From Tetracentron sinense (Eukaryota; Streptophyta; Magnoliopsida; Trochodendrales; Trochodendraceae), in assembly GCA_015143295.1 (NCBI GenBank), contig CM026565.1:16254548-16318547 (forward strand): 64,000 nt of DNA, written 5' to 3'. A program made the position numbers and the translations under genes. Under the pieces are notes generated by a model. It ran no database searches and was not told where the DNA came from. It worked only from the letters and a program-made list of their open reading frames with translations. Positions 3,276 through 60,935 of the stretch are shown here, one piece after another (within the stretch, counting starts at the first letter, position 1; every line of letters starts with the position of its first letter).

Positions 3276-3419
3276 TCAACCGAAATGAAAGTTGGGTCGC
3301 CTATCCAGCAATCCATCATCCTGGTAATGCTCCATAGAGGGCTCCGGATCATAGTATTCTTCCTCTATCCAAGACTCCATACCACAAACGTCAAATGGAA
3401 CACGTGCACCTACCGAAGT
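3276..3419 (-). pseudogene. E1 LTR small frame (start codon lost)
   Basis: Homologue of the small frames at 8707, 22457, 30040 and 60813. The peptide keeps VPFDVCGMESWIEEEYYDPE, aligning with the PFDxC and PW(V/I)EEEY core. The codon where the others have ATG reads ACT. The frame is open upstream as far as an ATG at 3456-3458, so translation from there is possible. Despite strong nucleotide divergence the WIEEEY core is kept, with GAA for GAG changes. Function unknown. Confidence 0.5.
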
Positions 3420-8706: not shown

Positions 8707-8826
8707 ATGTCGGCAGGTGATGGCGGAGCAGCTGCTCTTTTTGATGTCTGTGCTCCGAGCCCTTGGGTGGAGGAGGAGTACGTCGAGGAACCTTTGGAGG
8801 AACCTCCAGTAGAGGGTTACCATTAG
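8707..8826 (+). CDS. Solo LTR A small ORF, acidic PWVEEEY peptide (39 aa)
   Basis: ATG TCG GCA GGT start, then a peptide with FDVCAPSPWVEEEYVEEP and a C-terminus EGYH. It is strongly acidic, with no signal peptide or membrane segment. It starts 11 nt after a conserved hairpin (GCTGAG, 9-nt loop, CTCAGC). Compared with the 60813 copy, indels are in multiples of three and many changes are at third positions, which suggests selection on the protein. I recognise no known family. A role in element expression, RNA handling or as a leader uORF is possible; none is shown. Confidence 0.6.
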   Translation: MSAGDGGAAALFDVCAPSPWVEEEYVEEPLEEPPVEGYH

Positions 8827-9698: not shown

Positions 9699-9803
9699 GT
9701 TGAATCTTAGGATTTGGAAGCTTCTTGATCTGGACAGATGATTGTATCATCATCTTTAAGCTTCAATGACTGGATCATCTTCTCCAATATTTCTGATGGA
9801 TCA
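9699..9803 (-). repeat. Old Tat-type 5' LTR, inner end
   Basis: Sequence between the primer site and the E2 insertion. It should join the LTR-like sequence at 19047-19800 across E2. The 5-bp flanks of E2 are GATCA (left) and AATCA (right), one mismatch. Confidence 0.45.
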
Positions 9804-10839
9804 TGTAGAACCACAGACTTTTCGTACCTAATGAATAGCACTCTCATAGCCAATTGGCCTTTCACGTATTCCGATTAATAAATAAAGAAGAATGGGAAGA
9901 TTCTAAAATGCCAAAAATGTTCCTCTTCGAAAGATGAATCCAACGCAAGTTGAATCGTCAAAATCCGATGAACTAGTCAAAAGTTATGGTCAACTTACCA
10001 AAGTGGGAAAATGAGAGAAAACAAGAAAATTAGCAAAAACACACAGTCACTGGTTGATCGAATCTGCTACCGGTCGACTGAACACCTACCGGTCGACTAA
10101 TGCCCATTTGGGGGAAAGTTTGATCATTTAGGTGACCTAGATCATCCCCAAAGCTTGGATTTCTCAATCCAAAGCTCAAGCACGCGTGGAGTTCTTTCTC
10201 CAAGCTCGGCAGCGTTCGTCCTCGGCATTTTCAAGGGTTTCTTTCCTTCTTCAAGGTCGGTACCCTATGCTACCCTCTTAGTCATATTTTCCCTTCTCTT
10301 TCCTTATTTCTTTGATTCTCCTAAATTATGAGCAATCTATGAGATGGATTGCATGTGTGGAGATGTATGTTGGATGATGGATGCCATATGGATGTTGTGT
10401 TGTAATGAAAATAAATGTGAAGGGCATTTTACCAAATAATGAATACAAAATGGATGATGGATGGATTTGATAAATCATTAATCAAGAAAAACATGCTTCA
10501 AGATGAGTGAAAATTCTAGGGTTTTATGATAGTGTGATTATTCGTGATTATTCGCTTTCTATAATGGCATGAATATTTTTATGTGTTGAAATAAATGCGA
10601 TTCCATGTGTTATCAAATTTCAAATGTCATGTTTAATTCCAAGCTATAGCATGTACACGACTTCATGAGCACGGCATGCATGACATGGTTCATCAGTGTT
10701 TTTCAAGAACAAGGGTTTTATTCTCGATTCACGAACACCATGACAAAGCCAAATGTAAGGGTTGGTAAAAAGAGGTAAGGCATATCCTAAGATATGTTTT
10801 GCCTCGCTTTTGACAAGATCAAGAACGTGTCAAGCAAGA

Positions 10840-11010
10840 TTTCATTTCATTGAAATGAGGGGCTATACCACCCTTCCTCACAAGTGCATCTCATTGAAAT
10901 GAAGGGGTTCTATACCACCCTCCCTCGCAAGTGCATCTCATTGAAATGAGGGGGTTCTATACCGCCCTCCCTCACAAGTCCATCTCATTGAAAAGAGGGG
11001 TTTCCCCTCC
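10840..11010 (+). repeat. E2 LTR tandem repeat, about 48-bp unit
   Basis: About four units, each containing TTCATTGAAATGA or CTCATTGAAATGAG (a self-complementary word) and CCTCCCTC(G/A)CAAGTG. The 3' LTR (18185-18325) has about three. It occupies the same LTR position as the 69-bp repeat of E3. Confidence 0.8.
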
Positions 11011-11325
11011 CTCACAAGTGCATCTCACATGTTTAATTTCCAAGCAAGCAAGAACATGACATGACACGCATGACACGATAAGACAAGCAAGATAGAACAT
11101 TACAAGACAAGTTTTCAAGCACGAAAAGATTATCTTAAGTCAAGTCAAGCACACGATGATTTCAAGAGTTTTTCCAGCTTTGATGTGATGCAAGCATAAA
11201 ATATAAACTGTTTACTTCCCTGTTATTATATGAACTGCTTCCTGCTTTATTTCATAATTATGTTGCTATGACTGTTGGTTAGTATTTGGTACCCGCTGAG
11301 TATTCCATGCTCAGCCGTACGTCTT

Positions 11326-11430
11326 ATGTCAGCAGGTATTGAGGGAGCTATGGCTCCATTTGATATTTATGCTCCTAGTCCCTGGGTGGAAGAGGAGTAC
11401 ATCGAGGAGGTTCCTGGGAGCCTCAGGTAG
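11326..11430 (+). pseudogene. E2 5' LTR small ORF (frameshifted at the 3' end)
   Basis: ATG TCA GCA GGT, then PFDIYAPSPWVEEEYIEEV. A small deletion after codon 30 leads to an early TAG, 34 codons in all. The usual C-terminal EGYx end is present downstream in another frame. The conserved part carries synonymous third-position changes relative to 8707 (for example CCC and GAA). Confidence 0.5.
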
Positions 11431-11734
11431 AGGGTTACTATTAAGTGGTAGATTCTAAGTGGGTGTGGGTGAGCACGAGAGATTTTATTCCCATGTATTT
11501 TGGCGGGCATGTCCACACCTTTCTTTTGTTTACACTTTTTGATAATGTATATACATAGAGGTTTTGGTTAGACTTCCGCTGTGCTATGTTAGTTTATGGT
11601 TCCACTATTTTGTCCTACATTGTATATGCTCCATATGTTTTGCAGGATGATTCATCAAGCATGTCATGCAGGTCATGATAAGTCATTCAAGATTCACTCT
11701 AACTCCTAGGGTGGGTTTTGGGTCGCGACAGAAG

Positions 11735-13359: not shown

Positions 13360-13500
13360 GTACGCATTTAGAGTTATTCATTTATCCATTATGGTCTTAT
13401 TAAGCATTATTCTTTGTGTACGTATATGGCATGTTATGTATCTATATATCTATACATTTGATGTTGATGCATGGATTGACTTAGCTAGTTATAGTTTCAG
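13360..13500 (+). other. E2 candidate spliceosomal intron (141 nt)
   Basis: CAAG|GTACGC to TTTCAG|GAATC, T-rich, phase 1, interrupting a Gln-Gly codon pair between the zinc knuckle and the protease. Retained, gag ends at TAA 13401-13403. Removed, gag (in its zinc-knuckle frame) and pol are in one frame. Identical position and donor in E1, E3 and E4. Confidence 0.75.
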
Positions 13501-16901: not shown

Positions 16902-16916
16902 GTAAGTGGGGGAGAA
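16902..16916 (+). promoter_or_regulatory. E2 polypurine tract
   Basis: GTAAGTGGGGGAGAA directly before the 3' LTR; primes plus-strand DNA. Confidence 0.85.
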
Positions 16917-17148
16917 TATAGAACCCCGGACTTTTCGTACCTAATGAATAGCACTCTCATAGCCAATTGGCCTTTCATGTTGTCCAATTAATAAACAAAG
17001 AAGAATGGGAAGATTCTAAAACGCCAGAAATGTTCCTCTTCGAAAGATGAATCCAATGCAAGTTAAATCCTCAAAATCCAATGAACTAGTCAAAAGTTAT
17101 AGTCGACTGACCGAAGTGAATAGGAAAATTGGCAAAAACACATAGTCA

Positions 17149-17285
17149 CCGGTCGACCGAACACCCACCGGTCGACCGATGACAATTACCGGTCAACCGA
17201 ACATCGCACTGAATGAATGGAAAAATTTTCCAGAGAGGTCATTTCCGACCGGTTGACTGAAGGTCACAACCGGTCGACCGGTCAT
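17149..17285 (+). promoter_or_regulatory. E2 3' LTR palindrome array and box
   Basis: Five to six CCGGTCGACCG-like words on both sides of GGAAAAATTTTCCAGAGAG, ending about 75 nt before TATAAAA at 17359. Confidence 0.72.
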
Positions 17286-17358
17286 GTCGAAATTTGCCTA
17301 GTTCGGTCTTTTAAGCCAAATCATTAAGCGTAAATGGGTCTTTGACCACCCCATCCTC

Positions 17359-17365
17359 TATAAAA
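17359..17365 (+). promoter_or_regulatory. E2 3' LTR TATA box
   Basis: CTCTATAAAAGCC context; the matching segment is deleted in the 5' LTR. Confidence 0.75.
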
Positions 17366-18624
17366 GCCCCAATTCGTGGGTTAGAGTTCTCATAAACCAT
17401 TGAACACAAGTTTTGGGGAGATTGAGAGGAGAAGAGGGTTTCCAAGTAAGGGTTTCAATTTTGGGAGAAAGTTTGATCATTTGGGTGACCTAGATCATCC
17501 CCAAATCTTGGATTTCTCAATCCAAAGCTCAAGCATGCGTCGAGTACTTCCTCCAAGCTCGGCAGTGTTCGTCCTCAGCATTTTCAAGGGTTTCTTCCCT
17601 TCTTCAAGGTCGGTACCCTATGCTACCCTCTTAGTCATATTTTCCCTTTTTTTTCCTTATTTCTTTGATTCCCCTAAATTATGAACACTCTATGAGATGG
17701 ATTGCATGTGTGGAGATGGATGTTGGGTGATAGATGCCATATGGATGTTCTGTTGTAATGAAAATAAATCTAAAGGGCATTTTACCAAATAATGAATATA
17801 AAAAGTATGATGGATGGATTTGATAAATCATTAATCAAGAAAAGCATGCTTCAAGATGTGTGAAAATTCTAGGGTTTTATGATAGTGTGATTATTTGCTT
17901 TCTATAACGGCATGAATAATTTTATGTATTGAAATAAATGCGATTCCATGTGTTATTGAATTTCAAATTTCATGTCTACTTCCAAGCTATAGCATGTACA
18001 CGACTTCACGAGCACGGCATGCATGACATGGTTTATCGGTGTTTTTCAAGAACAAGGGTTTTATTTTTGATTCACGAAAACCATAAAAAGGCCAAACATA
18101 AGGGTTGGTAAATAGAGGTAGGGCATATCCTAAGATATGTTTTGCCTCACTTTTGACAAGATCAAGAACACGTCAAGCAAGATTTCATTTCATTGAAATG
18201 AGGGAGTTCTATACCACCCTCCCTCGCAAGTGCATCTCATTGAAATGAGGGGGTTCTATACCACCCACCCTCGCAAGTGCATCTCATTGAAAAGAGGGGT
18301 TTCCCCTCCCTCACAAGTGCATCTCACATGTTTAATTTCCAAGCAAGCAAGAACATGACATGACATGCATGACACGACAAGACAAGCAAGACAGAACATT
18401 ACAAGACAAGTTTTCAAGCACGAAAAGATTATTTTAAGTCAAGCCAAGCACACAATGATTTCAAGAGTTTTTCCGGCTTTGATGTGATGCAAGCATGAAA
18501 TATAAACTATTTACTTTCCTGTTATTATATGAACTGCTTCCTGCTTTGTTTCATTATTATGATGCTATGACTGTTGGTTAGTATTTGGTACCTGCTGAGT
18601 ATTCTATGCTCAGCCATACGTCTT

Positions 18625-18747
18625 ATGTCGGCAAGTATTGAGGAAGCTGCGACTCCGTTTCATATTTGTACTCCTAGTCCCTAGGTGGAAGAGGAGTATT
18701 TCGAGGAGGTCCCTACGGAGGTGCCTCAGGTAGAGGGTTACTGTTAG
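18625..18747 (+). pseudogene. E2 3' LTR small ORF (one nonsense codon)
   Basis: Full length, 41 codons including the stop, ending EGYC. The conserved Trp codon TGG is TAG at 18682. VEEEYFEEVP follows in frame. Length and C-terminus match the intact copies, showing the 5' LTR copy was shortened by its deletion. Confidence 0.5.
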
Positions 18748-19046
18748 GTGGTAGATTCTAAGTGGGTGTGTGTGAGCAAGAGAGATTTTATACCCATGTA
18801 TTTTGACAGGCATGTCCACACCTTTCTTTTGTTTACACTTTTTGCATAAAAACTTGGATCATGTATATACATAGAGGTTTTGGTTAGACTTCCACTGTGC
18901 TATGTTAGTTTATGCTTCTGCTATTTTGTCCTCTATTGTATATGCTCCATAATTTTTGCAGGATGTTTCGTCAAGCATGTCATGCAGGTCATGATAAGTC
19001 ATCCGAGATTCACTCTAACTCCTAGGGTGGGTTTTGGGTCACAACA

Positions 19047-22456: not shown

Positions 22457-22579
22457 ATGTCGATAGTTTTAGGATGGTTTTGTGCTCTGGGACCTTGGAT
22501 CGAGGAAGAATACACAGAGGAGCATAAAGGTGATTACCATGATGGAGAAGTTGATCTGAATCATCATCTATACTATTGA
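22457..22579 (+). CDS. LTR C small ORF, PWIEEEY peptide (40 aa)
   Basis: ATG TCG start after TTTTT, as in the other copies, then CALGPWIEEEYTEEHKGDYH and a C-terminus HHLYY. The surrounding LTR is only weakly alignable with LTRs A, B, E2 and E3, yet start, length, PW(I/V)EEEY core and aromatic C-terminus are kept, with codon changes such as ATC for GTG/GTC and GAA for GAG. This is the strongest single argument that the frame is translated. Function unknown. Confidence 0.58.
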   Translation: MSIVLGWFCALGPWIEEEYTEEHKGDYHDGEVDLNHHLYY

Positions 22580-28384: not shown

Positions 28385-29360
28385 TTCGCGTTTTTGCAGA
28401 AATTTCAGTAAGGGCTTTATCGTCTTTTGGGGGTTAAACCCTTTCTCCTTAAGGCTTGCCCGAGCCTTAGGGCATCATTCACTATACTTAGAGAGATTTG
28501 GGAGATAAGAGAGAAGAGAAAAGGGTTTCCTAAACCTAGGTTGCTTTTGGAGAAGAAATCAAAGGGGTGAAGACCCTAGATCGTCCCCAAGCACGTTTTC
28601 TTCAAGATTTCAACTCAAGCTCGGGTGGAGGTGCATTCTCCAAGCGAGGGCAGCACTCACTCACGTTTTGAAAGAGGTTTCTTCCCCCAACTCAAGTCCC
28701 CTTCAAGCAAAGGCTTCCTCCTTCCAAATAGAGCTTCTATTTCAAGGTTTCTTCAAGATCAAACCTTGATCTAAGGTTAGTACACCCTACTAACTTACCC
28801 TAGCAATAAATCTAGGTTTTCCTTATGAAATGTGATTTATGCTATTATGTTTGCCTCCCATATGAAATGTATCATCTCCAATGAACCTAAATAAGATAAG
28901 AAAAAGGTATGGATGTGTGTGGGTGTTGATGTGGCGATTGGATGCCGAGGTGTATGTTGGGTGATGTGTGTGATGGAAATGGTGGATGGGTACTTTACCA
29001 ATAATGAACATACCTTGATTTTTGGATGGAAAGTAGGCACTAAAAAGAAGAAGATGAACCATTAAGGAACCTTGCATGCTATGTGTTTGACAAAATGCCT
29101 AAACTAGGAATAAATGGACTTAATGAAGAAAATGGAAATAGAAATTGTGTAAATTCCTTAGGAATGATAAATTGCTCAAATGTGCTATATGTTGCCTAAA
29201 TTCTCATACCACTATGCTAAGGATTGAAATGCCATATTCTTGTGATCCGCCCATTTAAGTATGTCATCATGATTACCACTATTGATAAGCACACAAGCAC
29301 GCATGCATGCATGAATTGGGTTTTCCAAGAGTAATTGTGCATAATAAAGCAAACAAGAAA

Positions 29361-29770
29361 ACAAGAACATGACAAGGAGGTTGGTAGCCCAAGGAAGGGT
29401 GCTAGCCTCTGGCTCACAAGTGAAATGAATCAAGAACATGACAAGGAGGTTGGTAGCCCAAGGAAGGGTGCTAGCCTCTGCTCACAAGTGAAATGGAACA
29501 AGAACATGACAAGGAGGTTGGTAGCCCAAGGAAGGGTGCTAGCCTCTGGCTCACAAGAGAAACGGAACAAGAACATGACAAGGAGGTTGGTAGCCCAAGG
29601 AAGGGTGCTAGCCTCTGGCTCACAAGAGAAACGGAACAAGAACATGACAAGGAGGTTGGTAGCCCAAGGAAGGGTGCTAGCCTCTGGCTCACAAGAGAAA
29701 TGGAACAAGAACATGACAAGGAGGTTGGTAGCCCACGGAAGGGTGCTAGCCTCTGGCTCACAAGTATACA
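29361..29770 (+). repeat. 69-bp tandem repeat, six copies
   Basis: Each unit contains AAGAACATGACAAGGAGG, TTGGTAGCCCAAGG, GGGTGCTAGCCTCTGGCTCA and CAAG. One copy has lost a base. Because 69 is a multiple of three and the unit lacks stops, long open frames appear on both strands; they are not genes. The 3' LTR has five copies. Confidence 0.93.
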
Positions 29771-30039
29771 AGTCAAGAACAAATCAAGACATGAAATACA
29801 AGACAAGACACGACACACATACATGATTTGACCGAGACACGAAAAAGGTTTCCGAGACATGAGTTTTACCGAGGTTTTTGCATTCATACACGCATGTCAA
29901 GATATGGCTATGTATCTTATGCTTTCACTACTGCTTTAAATTAATATCTTGTATTGCTCACTGTTGTTATGCTTTCGCTATTGTTATGGTTAGCTAGTAG
30001 TTTGTACTCGCTGAGTATTCCATGCTCAGCCGTACTTTT

Positions 30040-30180
30040 ATGTCGGCAGGTACTGTGGATGTCCTCGACCCCGAGCCTTGGGTCGAGGAGGAGTATGTAG
30101 AGGTGAAGGAGCCACCTATCCCATGGCATTCTCAGGAGGATGGGGACTTGGATGTGTGGCCATACCTCGACTACTGTTGA
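30040..30180 (+). CDS. E3 5' LTR small ORF, acidic PWVEEEY peptide (46 aa)
   Basis: ATG TCG GCA GGT, then DVLDPEPWVEEEYVEVKEPP, an acidic C-terminal half and the end YLDYC. It starts 9 nt after the hairpin. Longer than the LTR A/B form because the C-terminal part differs, but core and start are kept. In the transcript it would lie in the leader upstream of gag. The 3' LTR copy (37590) is frameshifted by a GT-to-A change at codon 4. No known domain. Confidence 0.6.
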   Translation: MSAGTVDVLDPEPWVEEEYVEVKEPPIPWHSQEDGDLDVWPYLDYC

Positions 30181-30466
30181 GAGGAGAGGGTTAGAGAGTT
30201 CCTTTTTTTGTATTTTGATAGGTGGTCATGTCCACCTTTACTTTGATTGTATTTAGTATATGTTAACTTGGAATACTATATGGAGTTATAGAAGAAAAGA
30301 AAAAGTTGGCTTATGCTTCCGCACTTATGTTTAGTTTCAGCGCTCTGATTATCATTGTATTATATTATGTTTAGCCTCTTGCATTACAGGATGGTTTGAC
30401 AGGTACACGTAGTCACCTCTAATGTATCCCTTAACTCCTAGGGGGTATTTTGGGGCGTGACAGAAG

Positions 30467-30478: not shown

Positions 30479-30781
30479 CCTAGGTATTAGAGTCCCTAGG
30501 GTCACTTAGATGATTGAACAAGGTATTAGAATCACCTTAGAGAGTTATATTCCAAGTATGGACTAACAAGTTAGTCTTAGTCAAAATGGGTTGAACTTCA
30601 ACCGAACATAGAGTCCTACACTAGGAACACGGATTGTATGTTATGCTATTGTGTTATATACCATGTGTACATTATTGGTGTTGTACTTATTAAATGTGCT
30701 TGATGAATATGTATTGAGTGAATTGCGAAAAATTGTACTAAATGCGTATCCAAGTTAGACTCATGCTGTATTGTCGTTCTC

Positions 30782-30783
30782 AG
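30782..30783 (+). promoter_or_regulatory. E3 candidate leader splice acceptor
   Basis: CGTTCTCAG|G, 8 nt before the gag ATG at 30792. A candidate donor is at 28776. Confidence 0.42.
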
Positions 30784-30791
30784 GAGAAATC

Positions 30792-32028
30792 ATGAGACGC
30801 AATACCCGGGGTCGCGGGTACAACACGAGGGGTAATGGAGGTGATGCTCCATCGGGTGATGATCAGCCCGACTTTGCCCAAGCATTCGCATCCATAGCCG
30901 AGACTTTGGCTATGTTGGCGGCAAGGCAACCGGCCACTCCGCCTAATGCGGCACTTATACCGGCTCCTCCTAACCGAGCCCAAGCCAGGATAGAAGCTTT
31001 CCGGAGGATGAGGCCTCCAACTTTTTGTGGAAGCATTGATCCACTTGTTGCTGAGGGTTGGATTCGGCAACTTGAGAAGATATTCTCGGTTTTGGCACCT
31101 ACGGAAGTAGAGAGGGTCACATGGGCTGCCTTTATGCTTGAAGGCGAGGCCGACCATTGGTGGAAGTCTGCACTTCGGACCCGAGAGTTGACCCGGTAAG
31201 GCCAAGAATGGACATGGGGAGAATTCTTGGATGTTTTCTACAAGAAATACTTTCCGGTTGGGATGAAAGAAAAGAAAGAAATTGAATTGATTACCTTGGA
31301 GCAAGGTAATATGTCTGTAGCGGCTTACGAAGCCAAGTTCTCAGAGCTATCTCGATTTGCTCCACACATGATAGCTACCGAGGCTATGAAGGCCCGGAAA
31401 TTCGAGAGGGGGTTGAAGGCCTACCTCAAGGATCGTGTCTCAATGTTCCGACATGAGACATATTCAGAAGTTGTGGACAAAGCATTGTTGGCCGAGTCTA
31501 ATTCCGAAGAGTTCTTTAAGAGAAGAGGAATAGAGAAGGGACAGTCTAGTAGTTCAGGGGAGAAGAGAGCTAGGACTATGTCTTATCAGTCCGCAGGGCC
31601 GGCTCAGTCACAGAGGATGTACTCGGCACCACAGGCCCCCCGCCCTTTTACTCCACCGGCTTTTCGCCCGGCTACCTCGTATGCTCCTCGCCCCGCCGTG
31701 ACTCAGGCTACAGGTTATACTCCTCCCACTTATTCACATGATGTCTGCACCCTTTGTGGAAGGAGGCATCCAGCAGGGGAATGTCGGAAGGCTACAGGAG
31801 GCTGTTTTCATTGTGGCGACCAGGGCCACATGATTCGGGATTGTCCCCGACGTCTATTGCCAGCTCAGTCTTCGGGGAGCAGGCCCCCGATTAGGCAGAC
31901 ATCTCAGCCTAGCTCTTCTCAGGCTTCGAGGGCCTCACAGTCTACCCGGCCTCCTCGCCCAGCCACTCAGGGTCGAGTTTTTGCTCTATCGGAGAGAGAC
32001 GCACGTGCATCCGACGATGTCGTGCAAG
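30792..32028 (+). pseudogene. gag: E3 gag (one nonsense codon)
   Basis: The ATG at 30792 (MRRNTRGRGYNTRG) is preferred over an upstream non-ATG frame extension. Order: Gly/Arg-rich N-terminus; gag domain from FRRMRPPTFCGSIDPLVAEGW through EGEADHWWKSALRTRELTR and WTWGEFLDVFYKKYF; a Pro/Ser-rich linker; Cys motif CTLCGRRHPAGEC; CCHC knuckle CFHCGDQGHMIRDC (31803-31844). The only lesion is TAA at 31197, where E2 has CAA. If the intron is retained, translation ends at TGA 32043-32045. Gag forms particles and binds RNA. Confidence 0.93.
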
Positions 32029-32162
32029 GTACGCGAGAATTTTGAGTTTAAGTTGTATAAAATTTCTGTGGTTTGTTATGCGGTTAGTTATACTAAGGGT
32101 TACTTATGTATGATGCTTGTTACTATTTGAAATCTACTGATATTAGTTACTTAATCGCACAG
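32029..32162 (+). other. E3 candidate spliceosomal intron (134 nt)
   Basis: CAAG|GTACGC to CGCACAG|GC, about 67 percent A+T, phase 1, with a possible branch site CTGAT near 32137-32141. Joining the flanks keeps one frame from gag into pol; keeping it gives a Gag with a five-residue tail. Same site in E1, E2 and E4. Confidence 0.78.
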
Positions 32163-35604: not shown

Positions 35605-38011
35605 TATAGCACCCCGGACTTTTTCATCTTTAATGAATGGCACTTTCATAGCTAATTGGCCGTTTTCGTAGTCTAATTAATAAATAAGGGAGAAATTGGA
35701 AATTTCGAAATGTTAGAAATGTGCGTTTTCGAAAGACGAACCCAACGCAAGTTGAATCGTCGAAATCCGACGAGCGAGTCAAAAGATATGGTCAAAACAG
35801 TCCAGACATACAAAGCACCGATCGCTCGGTCCAGTCAGCGATCGATCGGTCCATAACCGATCGATCGGTAGCTATCGCACGGTCAGAAATTTTGTATGGG
35901 GAAATTTTCCAGAGAGTGAGTTTTTGACCGATCGATCGGTCAAAAACACCGATCGCTCGGTAGGCAACCGATCGATCGGTCATAACCACCGATCGCTCGG
36001 TCTTCGCGTTTTTGCAGAAATTTCAGTAAGGGCTTTATCGTCTTTTGGGGGTTAAACCCTTTCTCCTTAAGGCTTGCCCAAGCCTTAGGGCATCATTCAC
36101 TATACTTAGAGAGATTTGGGAGATAAGAGAGAAGAGAAAAGGGTTTCCTAAACCTAGGTTGCTTTTGGAGAAGAAATCAAAGGGGTGAAGACCCTAGATC
36201 GTCCCCAAGCACGTTTTCTTCAAGATTTCAACTCAAGCTCAGGTGGAGGTGCATTCTCCAAGCGAGGGCAGCACTCACTCACGTTTTGAAAGAGGTTTCT
36301 TCCCCCAACTCAAGTCCCCTTCAAGCAAAGGCTTCCTCCTTCCAAATAGAGCTTCTATTTCAAGGTTTCTTCAAGATCAAACCTTGATCTAAGGTTAGTA
36401 CACCCTACTAACTTACCCTAGCAATAAATCTAGGTTTTCCTTATGAAATGTGATTTATGCTATTATGTTTGCCTCCCATATGAAATGTATCATCTCCAAT
36501 GAACCTAAATAAGATAAGAAAAAGGTATGGATGTGTGTGGGTGTTGATGTGGCGATTGGATGCCGAGGTGTATGTTGGGTGATGTGTGTGATGGAAATGG
36601 TGGATGGGTACTTTACCAATAATGAACATACCTTGATTTTTGGATGGAAAGTAGGCACTAAAAAGAAGAACATGAACCATTAAGGAACCTTGCATGCTAT
36701 GTGTTTGACAAAATGCCTAAACTAGGAATAAATGGACTTAATGAATAAAATGGAAATAGAAATTGTGTAAATTCCTTAGGAATGATAAATTGCTCAAATG
36801 TGCTATATGTTGCCTAAATTCTCATACCACTATGTTAAGGATTGAAATGCCATATTCTTGTGATCCGCCCATTTAAGTATGTCATCATGATTACCACTAT
36901 TGATAAGCACACAAGCACGCATGCATGCATGAATTGGGTTTTCCAAGAGTAATTGTGCATAATAAAGCAAACAAGAAAACAAGAACATGACAAGGAGGTT
37001 GGTAGCCCAAGGAAGGGTGCTAGCCTCTGGCTCACAAGTGAAATGAATCAAGAACATGACAAGGAGGTTGGTAGCCCAAGGAAGGGTGCTAGCCTCTGGC
37101 TCACAAGTGAAATGGAACAAGAACATGACAAGGAGGTTGGTAGCCCAAGGAAGGGTGCTAGCCTCTGGCTCACAAGAGAAACGGAACAAGAACATGACAA
37201 GGAGGTTGGTAGCCCAAGGAAGGGTGCTAGCCTCTGGCTCACAAGAGAAACGGAACAAGAACATGACAAGGAGGTTGGTAGCCCACGGAAGGGTGCTAGC
37301 CTCTGGCTCACAAGTATACAAGTCAAGAACAAATCAAGACATGAAATACAAGACAAGACACGACACACATACATGATTTGACCGAGACACAAAAAAGGTT
37401 TCCGAGACATGAGTTTTACCGAGGTTTTTGCATTCATACACGCATGTCAAGATATGGCTATGTATCTTATGCTTTCACTACTGCTTTAAATTAATATCTT
37501 GTATTGCTCACTATTGTTATGCTTTCGCTATTGTTATGGTTAGCTAGTAGTTTGTACTCGCTGAGTATTCCATGCTCAGCCGTACTTTTATGTCGGCAGA
37601 ACTGTGGATGTCCTCGACCCCGAGCCTTGGGTCGAGGAGGAGTATGTAGAGGAGAAGGAGCCACCTATCCCATGACATTCTCAGGAGGATGGGGACTTGG
37701 ATGTGTGGCCATACCTCGACTACTGTTGAGAGGAGAGGGTTAGAGAGTTCCTTTTTTTGTATTTTGATAGGTGGGCATGTCCACCTTTACTTTGATTGTA
37801 TTTAGTATATGTTAACTTGGAATACTATATGGAGTTATAGAAGAAAAGAAAAAGTTGGCTTATGCTTCCGCACTTATGTTTAGTTTCAGCGCTCTGATTA
37901 TCATTGTATTATATTATGTTTAGCCTCTTGCATTACAGGATGGTTTGACAGGTACACGTAGTCACCTCTAAAGTATCCCTTAACTCCTAGGGGGTATTTT
38001 GGGGCATGACG
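35605..38011 (+). repeat. E3 3' LTR
   Basis: TATAGCACC (5' copy TGTAGCACC) to GGGGCATGACG, 2407 bp. The 68-bp shortfall is one tandem unit (five copies, 36979-37320). The small frame at 37590 is broken at codon 4. The last base is G instead of A. Confidence 0.96.
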
Positions 38012-45375: not shown

Positions 45376-45515
45376 TCAACAGTAGTTGAGGTATGACCAC
45401 ACGTCCAAATCCCTATCCTCCTGGGACTGCAATGGGATAGGTGGCTCCCTCTCCTCTACGTACTCTTCCTCGACCTAGGGTCAGGGTCGAGGACATCCAC
45501 GAAACCTGCCGACAT
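45376..45515 (-). pseudogene. E4 5' LTR small ORF (1-nt deletion and nonsense)
   Basis: ATG TCG GCA GGT start (45513-45515) and a start like E3 (VDVLDPDP). At the PW codons one base is missing and TGG has become TAG. The rest (VEEEYVEEREPPIP to YLNYC) is intact in the shifted frame up to TGA at 45376. Total 140 nt, one less than E3. Confidence 0.5.
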
Positions 45516-53977: not shown

Positions 53978-55317
53978 TGAAAAATCACTCGGTGAACCCC
54001 AAATAAAATATTCGAGTTGAGAACTCACAAAACCAAGGGGGGATGGCTAGCTTTCCCTATAATACTTTCTACCCTTTTTAAGATTTAATAATTAAATTAT
54101 TAACTAAGGAGAAATAATAATCAAGTGCGGAAAAGGAAAACAAGCAAACCACAACACAAGGTTTTTTACGTGGAAATCCTTCGGGGAAAAACCACGGGAC
54201 CTAGTCCAGCGAAGAGATATCACTAAGACAAAATCAACAAGAACTTACAAGACTCGAACTTGACTCCTTCGGACTCGACACTACGATCCTTCAGTTCTTA
54301 GTCCTCCACGCCTTGAAAAGTCATCACGTACCCGCAAGTCCCGTGATCAACCGCAGTCGCTCGTACTTCTCTTAGATCTCCACAACAACCACGATCCTTC
54401 TCGGATCGATCTCCTTCTACGAAGGCTCCGGATCACAAACACCAGCCAAAGACACACACGTGTCGGGATTGTCAAATTAATTTTCTAACAATCTCTAGAG
54501 GGATCTTAAAACCATGAAGATCACACAATGCAAGAGCTAAGAATAGAAAAGTTATTCTTGCATTCTCTAGAGAGGTTGTGAGAGGAGGGATCAACTATAA
54601 TCAATGAAGAATAAAAGAAACCCTAGGAGAGAGTTCTCCAGCCTCTACTCTCATAAACTAATAAGATCTCCACGAATTAGGTCAATAGAAGTCATATTTA
54701 TAGATTCCAAAGAGATTGCATGTGAATAGAACTCTTATTTAGCAAGGATGGATCTATCCATGGTGTGGACGGATCTGTCCATTGCCCACGGATCTATCCG
54801 TCATCACCAAGGATAGATCCTTCAAAGTCTATTAATGTAAGCACCGATCCATCCAAGTTAGCACCGATCTATCTATCACACCAAGGATAGATCTATCCAA
54901 ATGTTAATCAATCTATCCGTCATTACCAAGGATAGATCCTTCAAAACATAACTCTCTGGAAAAAATCCTCATACATATTTTTTCACCACCGATCTATCCA
55001 ACATGGAGAAGGATAGATCCTTCATTCCATACTTAGCCAATTTCGAATATTTCCAATGACTTGAATACAATAACTTTTTTTATGGAATTATACTAACCTC
55101 CTAGGTTGATAAAAAGGTGTTCTAAGTCAAAAACCAACCTAGGTAATGGGTCACTAAGTCACTTACCTTCCTAGATCTGGAGGTGATACTTGATGTAGAT
55201 TTCTTCTCTTTTCTTTGGCTTTTTGAAGCTTTACCAAGTATGACAAGTTGACTTAAAAATGACTCCACTTAGACTTACGTTTTGATACATAATTAGCCAA
55301 GATATTTTGGACTTACA
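53978..55317 (-). repeat. SIRE 3' LTR
   Basis: On minus TGTAAGTCC (55317) to GATTTTTCA (53978). Palindrome array 54746-55022, box 54949-54980, TATA CTATAAATA (54695-54703). Confidence 0.95.
54746..55022 (-). promoter_or_regulatory. SIRE LTR palindrome array and box
   Basis: About a dozen GGATAGATCC/GGATCTATCC half-sites and palindromes, often followed by TTCA. The box reads CTCTCTGGAAAAAATCC then TCATACAT, almost the same as in the Tekay LTRs. TATA is about 45 nt downstream. Repeated in the 5' LTR at 59825-60102. Confidence 0.72.
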
Positions 55318-59056: not shown

Positions 59057-60396
59057 TGAAAAATCACTCGGTGAACCCCAAATAAAATATTCGAGTTGAG
59101 AACTCACAAAACCAAGGGGGGATGGCTAGCTTTCCCTATAACTCTTTCTACCCTTTTTAAGATTTAATAATTAAATTATTAACTAAGGAAAAATAATAAT
59201 CAAGTGCGGAAAAGGAAAACAAGCAAACCACAACACAAGGTTTTTTACGTGGAAACCCTTCCGGGAAAAACCACGAGACCTAGTCCAGCGAAGAGATATC
59301 ACTAAGACAAAATCAACAAGAACTTACAAGACTCAAACTTGACTCCTTCGGACTCGACACTACGATCCTTTAGTTCTTAGTCCTCCACGCCTTGAAAAGT
59401 CATCACGTACCCGCAAGTCCCGTGATCAACCGCAGTCGCTCGTACTTCTCTTAGATCTCCACAACAACCACGATCCTTCTCGGATCGATCTCCTTCTACG
59501 AAGGCTCCGGATCACAAACACCGGCCAAAGAAACACACGTGTCGGGATTGTCAAATTAATTTTCTAACAATCTCTAGAGGGATCTTAAAACCATGAAGAT
59601 CACACAATGCAAGAGCTAAGAATAGAAAAGTTATTCTTGCATTCTCTAGAGAGGTTGTGAGAGGAGGGATCAACTATAATCAATGAAGAATAAAAGAAAC
59701 CCTAGGAGAGAGTTCTCCACCCTCTACTCTCATAAACTAATAAGATCTCCACGAATTAGGTCAATAGAATTCGTATTTATAGATTCCAAAGAGATTGCAT
59801 GTGAATAGAACTCTTATTTAGCAAGGATGGATCTATCCATGGTGTGGACGGATCTATCCATTGCCCACGGATCTATCCGTCATCACCAAGGATAGATCCT
59901 TCAAAGTCTATTCATGTAAGCATCGATCCATCCAAGTTAGCACCGATCTATCTATCACACCAAGGATAGATCTATCCATATGTTGATCGATCTATCCGTC
60001 ATTACCAAGGATAGATCCTTCAAAACATAACTCTCTGGAAAAAATCTTCATACATATTTTTTCACCACCGATCTATCCAACATGGAGAAGGATAGATCCT
60101 TCATTCCATACTTAGCCAATTTCGAATATTTCCAATGACTTGAATACAATAACTTTTTTTATGGAATTATACTAACTTCCTAGGTTGATAAAAAGGTGTT
60201 CTAAGTCAAAAACCAACCTAGGTAATGGGTCACTAAGTCACTTACCTTCCTAGATCTGGAGGTGATACTTGATGTAGATTTCTTCTCTTTTCTTCGACTT
60301 TTTGAAGCTTTACCTAGTATGACAAGTTGACTTAAAAATGACTCCACTTAGACTTACGTTTTGATACATAATTAGCCAAGATATTTTGGACTTACA
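59057..60396 (-). repeat. SIRE 5' LTR
   Basis: On minus TGTAAGTCC (60396) to TTTTTCA (59057). It matches the 3' LTR with few substitutions. Array 59825-60102, box 60028-60060, TATA 59774-59782. Confidence 0.95.
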
Positions 60397-60812: not shown

Positions 60813-60935
60813 CTAATAGTAGCCCTCGGCCTGAGGTTCCTCTACAGGTTCCTCAACGTACTCCTCCTCCTCCACCCAAGGGTTCGGAGCACAGATATCA
60901 AAAGGAGCAGCCGCTCCGCTATCACCTGCCGACAT
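60813..60935 (-). CDS. Solo LTR B small ORF, acidic PWVEEEEY peptide (40 aa)
   Basis: ATG TCG GCA GGT (60933-60935), PFDICAPNPWVEEEEYVEEP, end EGYY, stop at 60813. It differs from solo LTR A by one extra in-frame Glu codon, several third-position changes (GCA/GCG, GTC/GTT, GGT/GGC) and conservative replacements. It is preceded by the hairpin. Intact although the LTR is solo, so open frames survive in the recently active subfamily. Confidence 0.6.
   Translation of the reverse strand: MSAGDSGAAAPFDICAPNPWVEEEEYVEEPVEEPQAEGYY

Follow-up and report, generated by a model that had tools for sequence, protein, structure and literature searches.

A probable PW(V/I)EEEY coding segment in the LTRs of Tekay-like elements of Tetracentron sinense, a candidate spliced exon

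The window, by which we mean the whole 64,000-nucleotide stretch of Tetracentron sinense DNA analysed here (contig CM026565.1, positions 16,254,548 to 16,318,547), consists of Ty3-type elements piled up by nested insertion, their long terminal repeats (LTRs) measuring about 1.9-2.5 kb, as delineated by self-BLAST and Pfam searches. In one of these elements, E3, the 5' LTR runs from 27988 to about 30462 and is followed by the primer site TGGTATCAGAGC; across three E3 open reading frames (ORFs), the Pfam matches to gag, protease, reverse transcriptase (RT) and RNase H exceed the cut-offs. The integrase core (rve) scores 23.7 bits against a Pfam cut-off of 32.6, and the chromodomain (Chromo, E = 7.6e-5) scores 23 bits against a cut-off of 25.1. 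The clade name Tekay is taken over from the original prediction, and the elements are called Tekay-like here. The E3 pol ORF has no relative in the viral contig collection and, among plasmids, matches three records through distantly similar RT; the LTR tail has no match in the plasmid collection. Other features of the window include tandem repeats of 69 bp in the two LTRs of E3 (29342-29917 and 36892-37467), an E2 5' LTR (9803-11730) whose head differs from that of its 3' partner (16916-19046) and is missing the TATA-like part, and a pair of direct repeats (53978-55317 and 59057-60396; 98.2% identical over 1340 bases) that are perhaps the LTRs of a younger, unrelated element.

A short frame with a PW(V/I)EEEY core occurs in nine copies at an equivalent LTR place in seven elements or fragments (E1-E4, S8, O22 and S60), with a length of 39-46 codons across copies. 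The original prediction had put the frame at one shared LTR place, with the copies at 8707, 22457, 30040 and 60813 intact and the other five damaged (for minus-strand copies its number is the lowest coordinate of the stop); re-reading the frames bears this out at all nine places. The four intact copies, open from ATG to stop, are those of the E3 5' LTR (30040-30180, plus strand; 46 codons), which lies about 420 bases short of the LTR end; S8 (8707-8826, plus strand; 39 codons); O22 (22457-22579, plus strand; 40 codons), a fragment for which no LTR borders could be located; and S60 (60813-60935, minus strand; 40 codons), which has one extra Glu codon. The five damaged copies differ in their lesions. 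In the E2 5' LTR (11326-11427, plus strand) the frame is broken after EEEYIEE, with four bases missing relative to the partner LTR, and in the E2 3' LTR (18625-18747, plus strand) the core Trp codon has become a stop in an otherwise full-length frame and the acceptor AG discussed below is lost. The E3 3' LTR copy (37590-37730, end approximate, plus strand) lacks one base, and a Trp codon further on in it has become a stop. The E4 5' LTR copy (45376-45515, minus strand), with its ATG at 45515, is also missing one base, and the E1 5' LTR copy (3276-3419, minus strand) has no ATG at the equivalent place, its frame being open to the stop at 3278-3276.

Comparison of the copies suggests that the block is probably under some protein-coding constraint. 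In a 10-codon ungapped core, parsimony on an assumed tree gives 7, 6 and 15 changes at codon positions one, two and three, the third position taking 15 of 28 (binomial P = 0.02) and two of the 28 changes creating stops. Among 15 between-element pairs chosen from 34 possible ones, the third position is the most changed in 14 and tied in one, and synonymous change lies above simulation (P < 0.05) in seven; these pairs are mutually non-independent, and their alignments were protein-guided, with blocks shorter than four codons or below 40% identity discarded, both of which favour a coding result. Nucleotide-only alignment, in which S8-S60 is misaligned at the extra Glu codon, gives P < 0.05 for six of 13 between-element pairs, with some ratios near or above 1. 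The LTRs of a single element diverge only after insertion, and the bias is missing there: the third position is highest in neither of the two same-element pairs (6/3/4 for E2a/E2b and 0/1/0 for E3a/E3b, where a and b are the 5' and 3' LTR copies). The third-position excess claimed in the original prediction is recovered between elements, by the core count and by the pairs alike, and is absent within them.

The original prediction also held that length changes keep the frame. Within the frame, S8-S60 and S8-E2b each differ by one indel of 3 nt, S60-E2b by two mutually cancelling indels of 1 nt and E3a-E4 by one uncompensated indel of 1 nt, against 20, 24, 21 and 10 indels (16, 22, 17 and 8 of them not multiples of three) in flanks that are roughly four times longer than the frame. 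Over these four pairs frame-breaking indels are few and the extra Glu of S60 is in frame, but the E3a-E4 indel breaks it. Across seven copies, conservation of the LTR tail peaks at 29995-30045, just before and over the ATG (0.78-0.85), and is lower in the peptide core (0.69-0.71). The AlphaFold model of the nine-row alignment is of low confidence (mean pLDDT 67.3, pTM 0.17).

Relatives of the peptide exist outside the window. A profile built from five window peptides retrieves one 47-aa protein among 5.77 billion (E = 1.8e-3); with this match added, the profile finds two more proteins, and a third round finds no others. These three (P0001-P0003) are predicted proteins of 44-48 aa on ENA contigs of 743-1261 bases (the longest contig of each), and their consensus, AP(V/A)PW(V/I)EE(E/D)YVEEP...ED.Y.PD.WPY, has the core and the acidic tail in common with the window copies. 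Since pairwise BLASTP on such acidic peptides gives unstable E-values (2.2, 0.071 and 3e-7), the relatives were evaluated by shuffling. For E3a and S8, none of 5000 shuffles reaches the observed score in any of the six comparisons with P0001-P0003; the tail of E3a alone gives shuffle P values of 0.02 and 0.01, and E1 gives weaker values (P 0.004 to 0.027). A WVEEEYVEE pattern hit two bacterial contigs in the genome contig collection, which we take as chance, and neither this pattern nor that of the hairpin described below had a match in the viral contig collection. The third-position bias, the scarcity of frame breaks and the three relatives that keep both core and tail support the protein-level constraint proposed originally. 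Given the copies, the between-element bias and the outside proteins, a short coding segment probably exists and is not limited to the window.

At the start of the frame, the ATG sits inside an acceptor-like TTYTTATGTCGGCAG|GT. It lies within a conserved block ahead of the candidate exon (30010-30049, plus strand, in E3) in which a hairpin, GCTGAGTAT/ATGCTCAGC, precedes the acceptor-like TTTTATGTCGGCAG|GT. The hairpin, GCTGAGTAT-NNN-AT(A/G)CTCAGC (30008-30030 and counterparts), stands just before the ATG, covers a CTCAG site and has 9 bp in six of eight folded copies. Scored with an approximate dicot splice-site matrix, which underlies all splice scores and ranks given here, the AG over the ATG is the best of 183 in the E3 leader, the best of 147 in E4 and the second of 131 in E2. 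Among the 8429 AG sites of the window it falls in the top 0.65% in six of nine copies and in the top 5% in two more, E1 and O22; E2b has lost it. E1 and O22, the two most divergent copies, have TAG for CAG, so that YAG is kept and the residue changed. When the frame is read from this AG, the PW core is at phase 1 in six of the nine copies; E3b and E4 are broken by a base lost later on. The sequence GCAG|GT (30048-30051 and counterparts) is also donor-like, with donor rank 4 of 129 in E2 and 7 of 147 in E3; recursive splice sites combine acceptor and donor likeness in this way. A second acceptor-like site lies some 80 bases short of where the LTR ends (TTTTGCAG|GATG at 11645 in E2, rank 1 of 131; TTACAG|GATG at 30389 in E3, rank 6 of 183), and another, at 30221 in E3, scores 10.9.

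In the original prediction, the frame was a leader peptide or upstream ORF (uORF) starting at ATGTC(G/A). An ATG is present at this place in eight of the nine window copies and absent in E1, P0001 and P0002. E1 has an in-frame ATG six codons upstream and E3a an additional in-frame upstream ATG, and P0001-P0003 have their initial M close by, their N-termini having been set by a gene caller that must pick a start; the upstream ATG of S8 is out of frame and closed after 10 codons. Around the ATG of ATGTC(G/A), position -3 is a pyrimidine and position +4 is T, a poor start context. In unspliced RNA, moreover, 44-59 ATGs would lie between the donor-like site of the LTR head (see below) and the frame ATG in all seven LTRs measured. 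Initiation at ATGTC(G/A) itself is called into question by these intervening ATGs, by the rank (first or second in the three elements scored) of the acceptor-like site that contains the ATG, and by the sequences that lack it. In view of the in-frame upstream ATGs in E1 and E3a and the M starts of P0001-P0003, a peptide may nevertheless be started near here.

Splice-like signals are also present elsewhere in the elements. About 440-470 bases into the LTR head is a TATA-like sequence (CTATAAAAG in E2b; CCTATAAGGG in S60 and the E4 3' LTR; variants with TTAA in S8 and E3). Next come 225-301 bases that contain 0-1 ATG, the start of this part being assumed for three of the seven LTRs, and then a donor-like AAG|GT(T/C)(A/G)GTA (AAA|GT in E4). 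The E3 site, AAG|GTTAGTAC (28776-28783, plus strand), has counterparts in seven of eight LTRs scanned, with donor ranks of 1 of 147 in E3, 5 of 148 in E4 and 13 of 129 in E2. Past this site, the 44-59 ATGs occupy 1.0-1.3 kb in which base composition predicts 19-26, and in six of seven LTRs the donor-like site falls within the longest run of sequence free of ATG. Against dinucleotide shuffles, the ATG deficit of the LTR head is not significant in any of the seven LTRs (P 0.20-0.49), and ATG depletion was dropped as proof of a leader exon. Ahead of the gag ATG, all four elements E1-E4 carry CTYAG|GA at a distance of 8-10 bases; in E3 this is the acceptor-like TTCTCAG|GA (30765-30792, plus strand), 8 bases before the ATG at 30792 and rank 5 of 183.

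The strongest pattern is an intron-like stretch between gag and protease, 134 nt long in E3 (32029-32162, plus strand), with counterparts at 13360-13500 (plus strand), 43531-43401 and 1518-1382 (both minus strand) in the three other elements (E1, E2 and E4). In all four it is 131-141 nt long, has an AT content of 0.68-0.73 and extends from AAG|GTACGC to AG|G at the codon VVQ|G, and its removal gives a protease start of G(A/I)LL(V/I)(N/S)ECLA. The acceptor was picked by the resulting frame; it is the best-scoring one in E4 and E2, scores 4.9 in E3, behind a site of 5.7, and is unscored in E1. The donor, CAA G|GTACGC, is in phase 1 in all four elements, with a stop one codon before it in E4; it is the only donor-like site above 6 in the internal regions of both E3 and E2 and about eighth among the E3 internal donors. 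These features suggest that E1-E4 are intron-bearing and spliced, the gag-protease stretch possibly yielding Gag when retained and Gag-Pol when removed.

We tentatively favour the view that the PW(V/I)EEEY block is a coding exon of the LTR, that splicing sets its frame and that it may act as a terminal exon in the 3' LTR, adding an acidic tail to Gag. The chance that splicing opens the frame at all is close to even, and it is possible, though somewhat unlikely, that the gag donor is the splice partner. The 3' splice site TTYTTATGTCGGCAG|GT would open the frame, the ATG being a by-product of a T-rich acceptor, and the LTR copy at the 3' end of the element would most likely supply an alternative 3'-terminal exon. 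If the conserved phase-1 donor at the gag end, CAA G|GT, were joined to the 3'-LTR acceptor, pol would be skipped, giving a short isoform of Gag whose acidic tail carries PWVEEEY. Features legible in the DNA itself argue for such an exon, namely the copies, the third-position bias, the outside relatives, the acceptor-like signal, the matching phase and the intron-like gag-protease stretch; the proposal further supposes that splicing occurs, that this donor is chosen, that in the 3' LTR the poly(A) site follows the block and that the tail has a role. An exon is preferred over a free microprotein because the gag donor and the LTR acceptor are both phase 1 and because splicing from the LTR head would leave the frame without a start codon. 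Against an exon, a phase-1 match is expected by chance in one case in three, other good acceptor-like sites lie close by (30221 in E3; 11645, rank 1, in E2), the E3 protease acceptor scores low, the gag donor ranks only about eighth and E1 and E3 have in-frame upstream ATGs. In addition, the junction codon of P0001 encodes Ser, a residue that a phase-1 AG acceptor disallows unless that copy is damaged. Two other splice partners were considered and rejected: leader exon 1 as the source of a start codon, which holds 0-1 ATG and in E3 has a TAA just before the junction in frame, and a donor at the end of pol, where no site above 6 is common to E3 and E2.

The same coding signal could reflect a free acidic microprotein, about 40-50 aa in length, that starts at ATGTC(G/A) or a nearby in-frame ATG and would either act in trans or serve gag as a uORF. 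We regard this as a real possibility, ranked only a little below the exon. It would need a transcript with the AUG of the frame first, for instance one in which the LTR-head donor is spliced to CTCAG|CC just upstream. The ATG found in eight of nine copies and the in-frame starts near it in E1, E3a and P0001-P0003 accord with such a product, as does the CTCAG, kept in seven of nine copies, since splicing there would make ATGTCG the first AUG after an ATG-poor leader. However, the CTCAG|CC acceptor ranks only 15, 17 and 6, unspliced RNA would interpose 44-59 ATGs, the start position varies and the distance from core to stop differs between families. In arrest uORFs this distance is constant, and an arrest uORF as the sole cause was rejected because here it varies.

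Two readings dispense with a functional peptide. The block could act in RNA only, as a 3' splice site with a purine-rich splicing enhancer (GAGGAGGAG) and no selected protein, which would fit the purine-rich core and the position of the most conserved part, in the noncoding block before the AG; we consider this improbable in view of the third-position bias in the core and of protein relatives in which the tail is retained (for that of E3a, P 0.02 and 0.01). More improbable still is an open frame that arose by chance or is a relic, which shared descent has preserved and which is functionless now. The sample of seven elements or fragments from one window, the moderate P values, the non-independent pairs and the damage in five of nine copies speak for it; the difference between between- and within-element comparisons and the relatives found elsewhere speak against it.

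Coding sequence that overlaps the 3' LTR and is reached by splicing is known from MMTV Sag and primate lentivirus Nef, which are long proteins of animal retroviruses; they share with the window block the spliced coding in the 3' LTR that is proposed for it. Plant conserved-peptide uORFs have a short conserved peptide adjoining the stop; the window frame resembles them in its short peptide and possible leader position, whereas its core lies 13-27 codons before the stop. Among plant retrotransposons, BARE1 belongs to Ty1/copia, and in all four window elements the end of gag has an in-frame, phase-1 candidate donor of the kind expected for short-GAG isoforms made by splicing. Sections of two papers place EVADE in Ty1/copia as well and describe host splicing in EVADE, BARE1 and the sunflower elements Tyran and Varan that gives a Gag-only mRNA without pol (PMC12786077, PMC7730604). 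Gag-only splicing is the proposed likeness to these isoforms; an LTR-encoded tail exon is not described in those sections.

Ogre elements, according to part of another paper, have an intron in the polyprotein region, between GAG-PROT and RT, that is spliced in part of the transcripts (PMC6317226), whereas the window stretch lies between gag and protease, in a probable chromovirus. The survey of additional ORFs, as the same part describes it, counted only ORFs of at least 250 codons (Neumann 2019; PMC6317226), and the window frame, at 39-46 codons, falls below this threshold. In sunflower Tekay elements, as excerpts of one study relate, a 5' additional ORF encodes about 400 aa (PMC11728184). 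The window frame would likewise be extra coding sequence, but the sunflower ORF is long and placed relative to gag-pol, whereas the window frame is short and lies inside the LTR. Cer1 CERV, described in an extract of a further study, is a protein that an LTR retrotransposon makes from spliced mRNA (PMC10309623); it is a much longer nematode protein, and its likeness to the window peptide lies in the spliced mRNA proposed for the latter. Portions of a 2025 review describe plant LTR elements as generally intronless save Ogre and EVADE (PMC12786077), and the portions covered of a review of additional ORFs mention no LTR-encoded ORF (PMC7264820). Neither PWVEEEY, PWIEEEY or WVEEEYVEE nor a uORF in a Tekay LTR was found in the literature searched, outside which most subscription papers lie; an intron-bearing, retrovirus-like programme with an LTR exon was likewise not found described for a Tekay-like lineage in the portions of that literature covered.

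Plant LTRs are usually regarded as regulatory DNA. The fullest form of our proposal, which as a whole we hold to be possible and somewhat unlikely, is that Tekay-like chromoviruses keep a selected LTR coding exon, spliced onto Gag via the 3' LTR or expressed from its own mRNA, that would give an acidic PW(V/I)EEEY peptide within an intron-bearing, retrovirus-like programme. If true, such an exon would account for a conserved LTR segment that is invisible to long-ORF surveys and, together with a gag-protease intron, would change the view of how Gag versus Pol is set in a common plant lineage.
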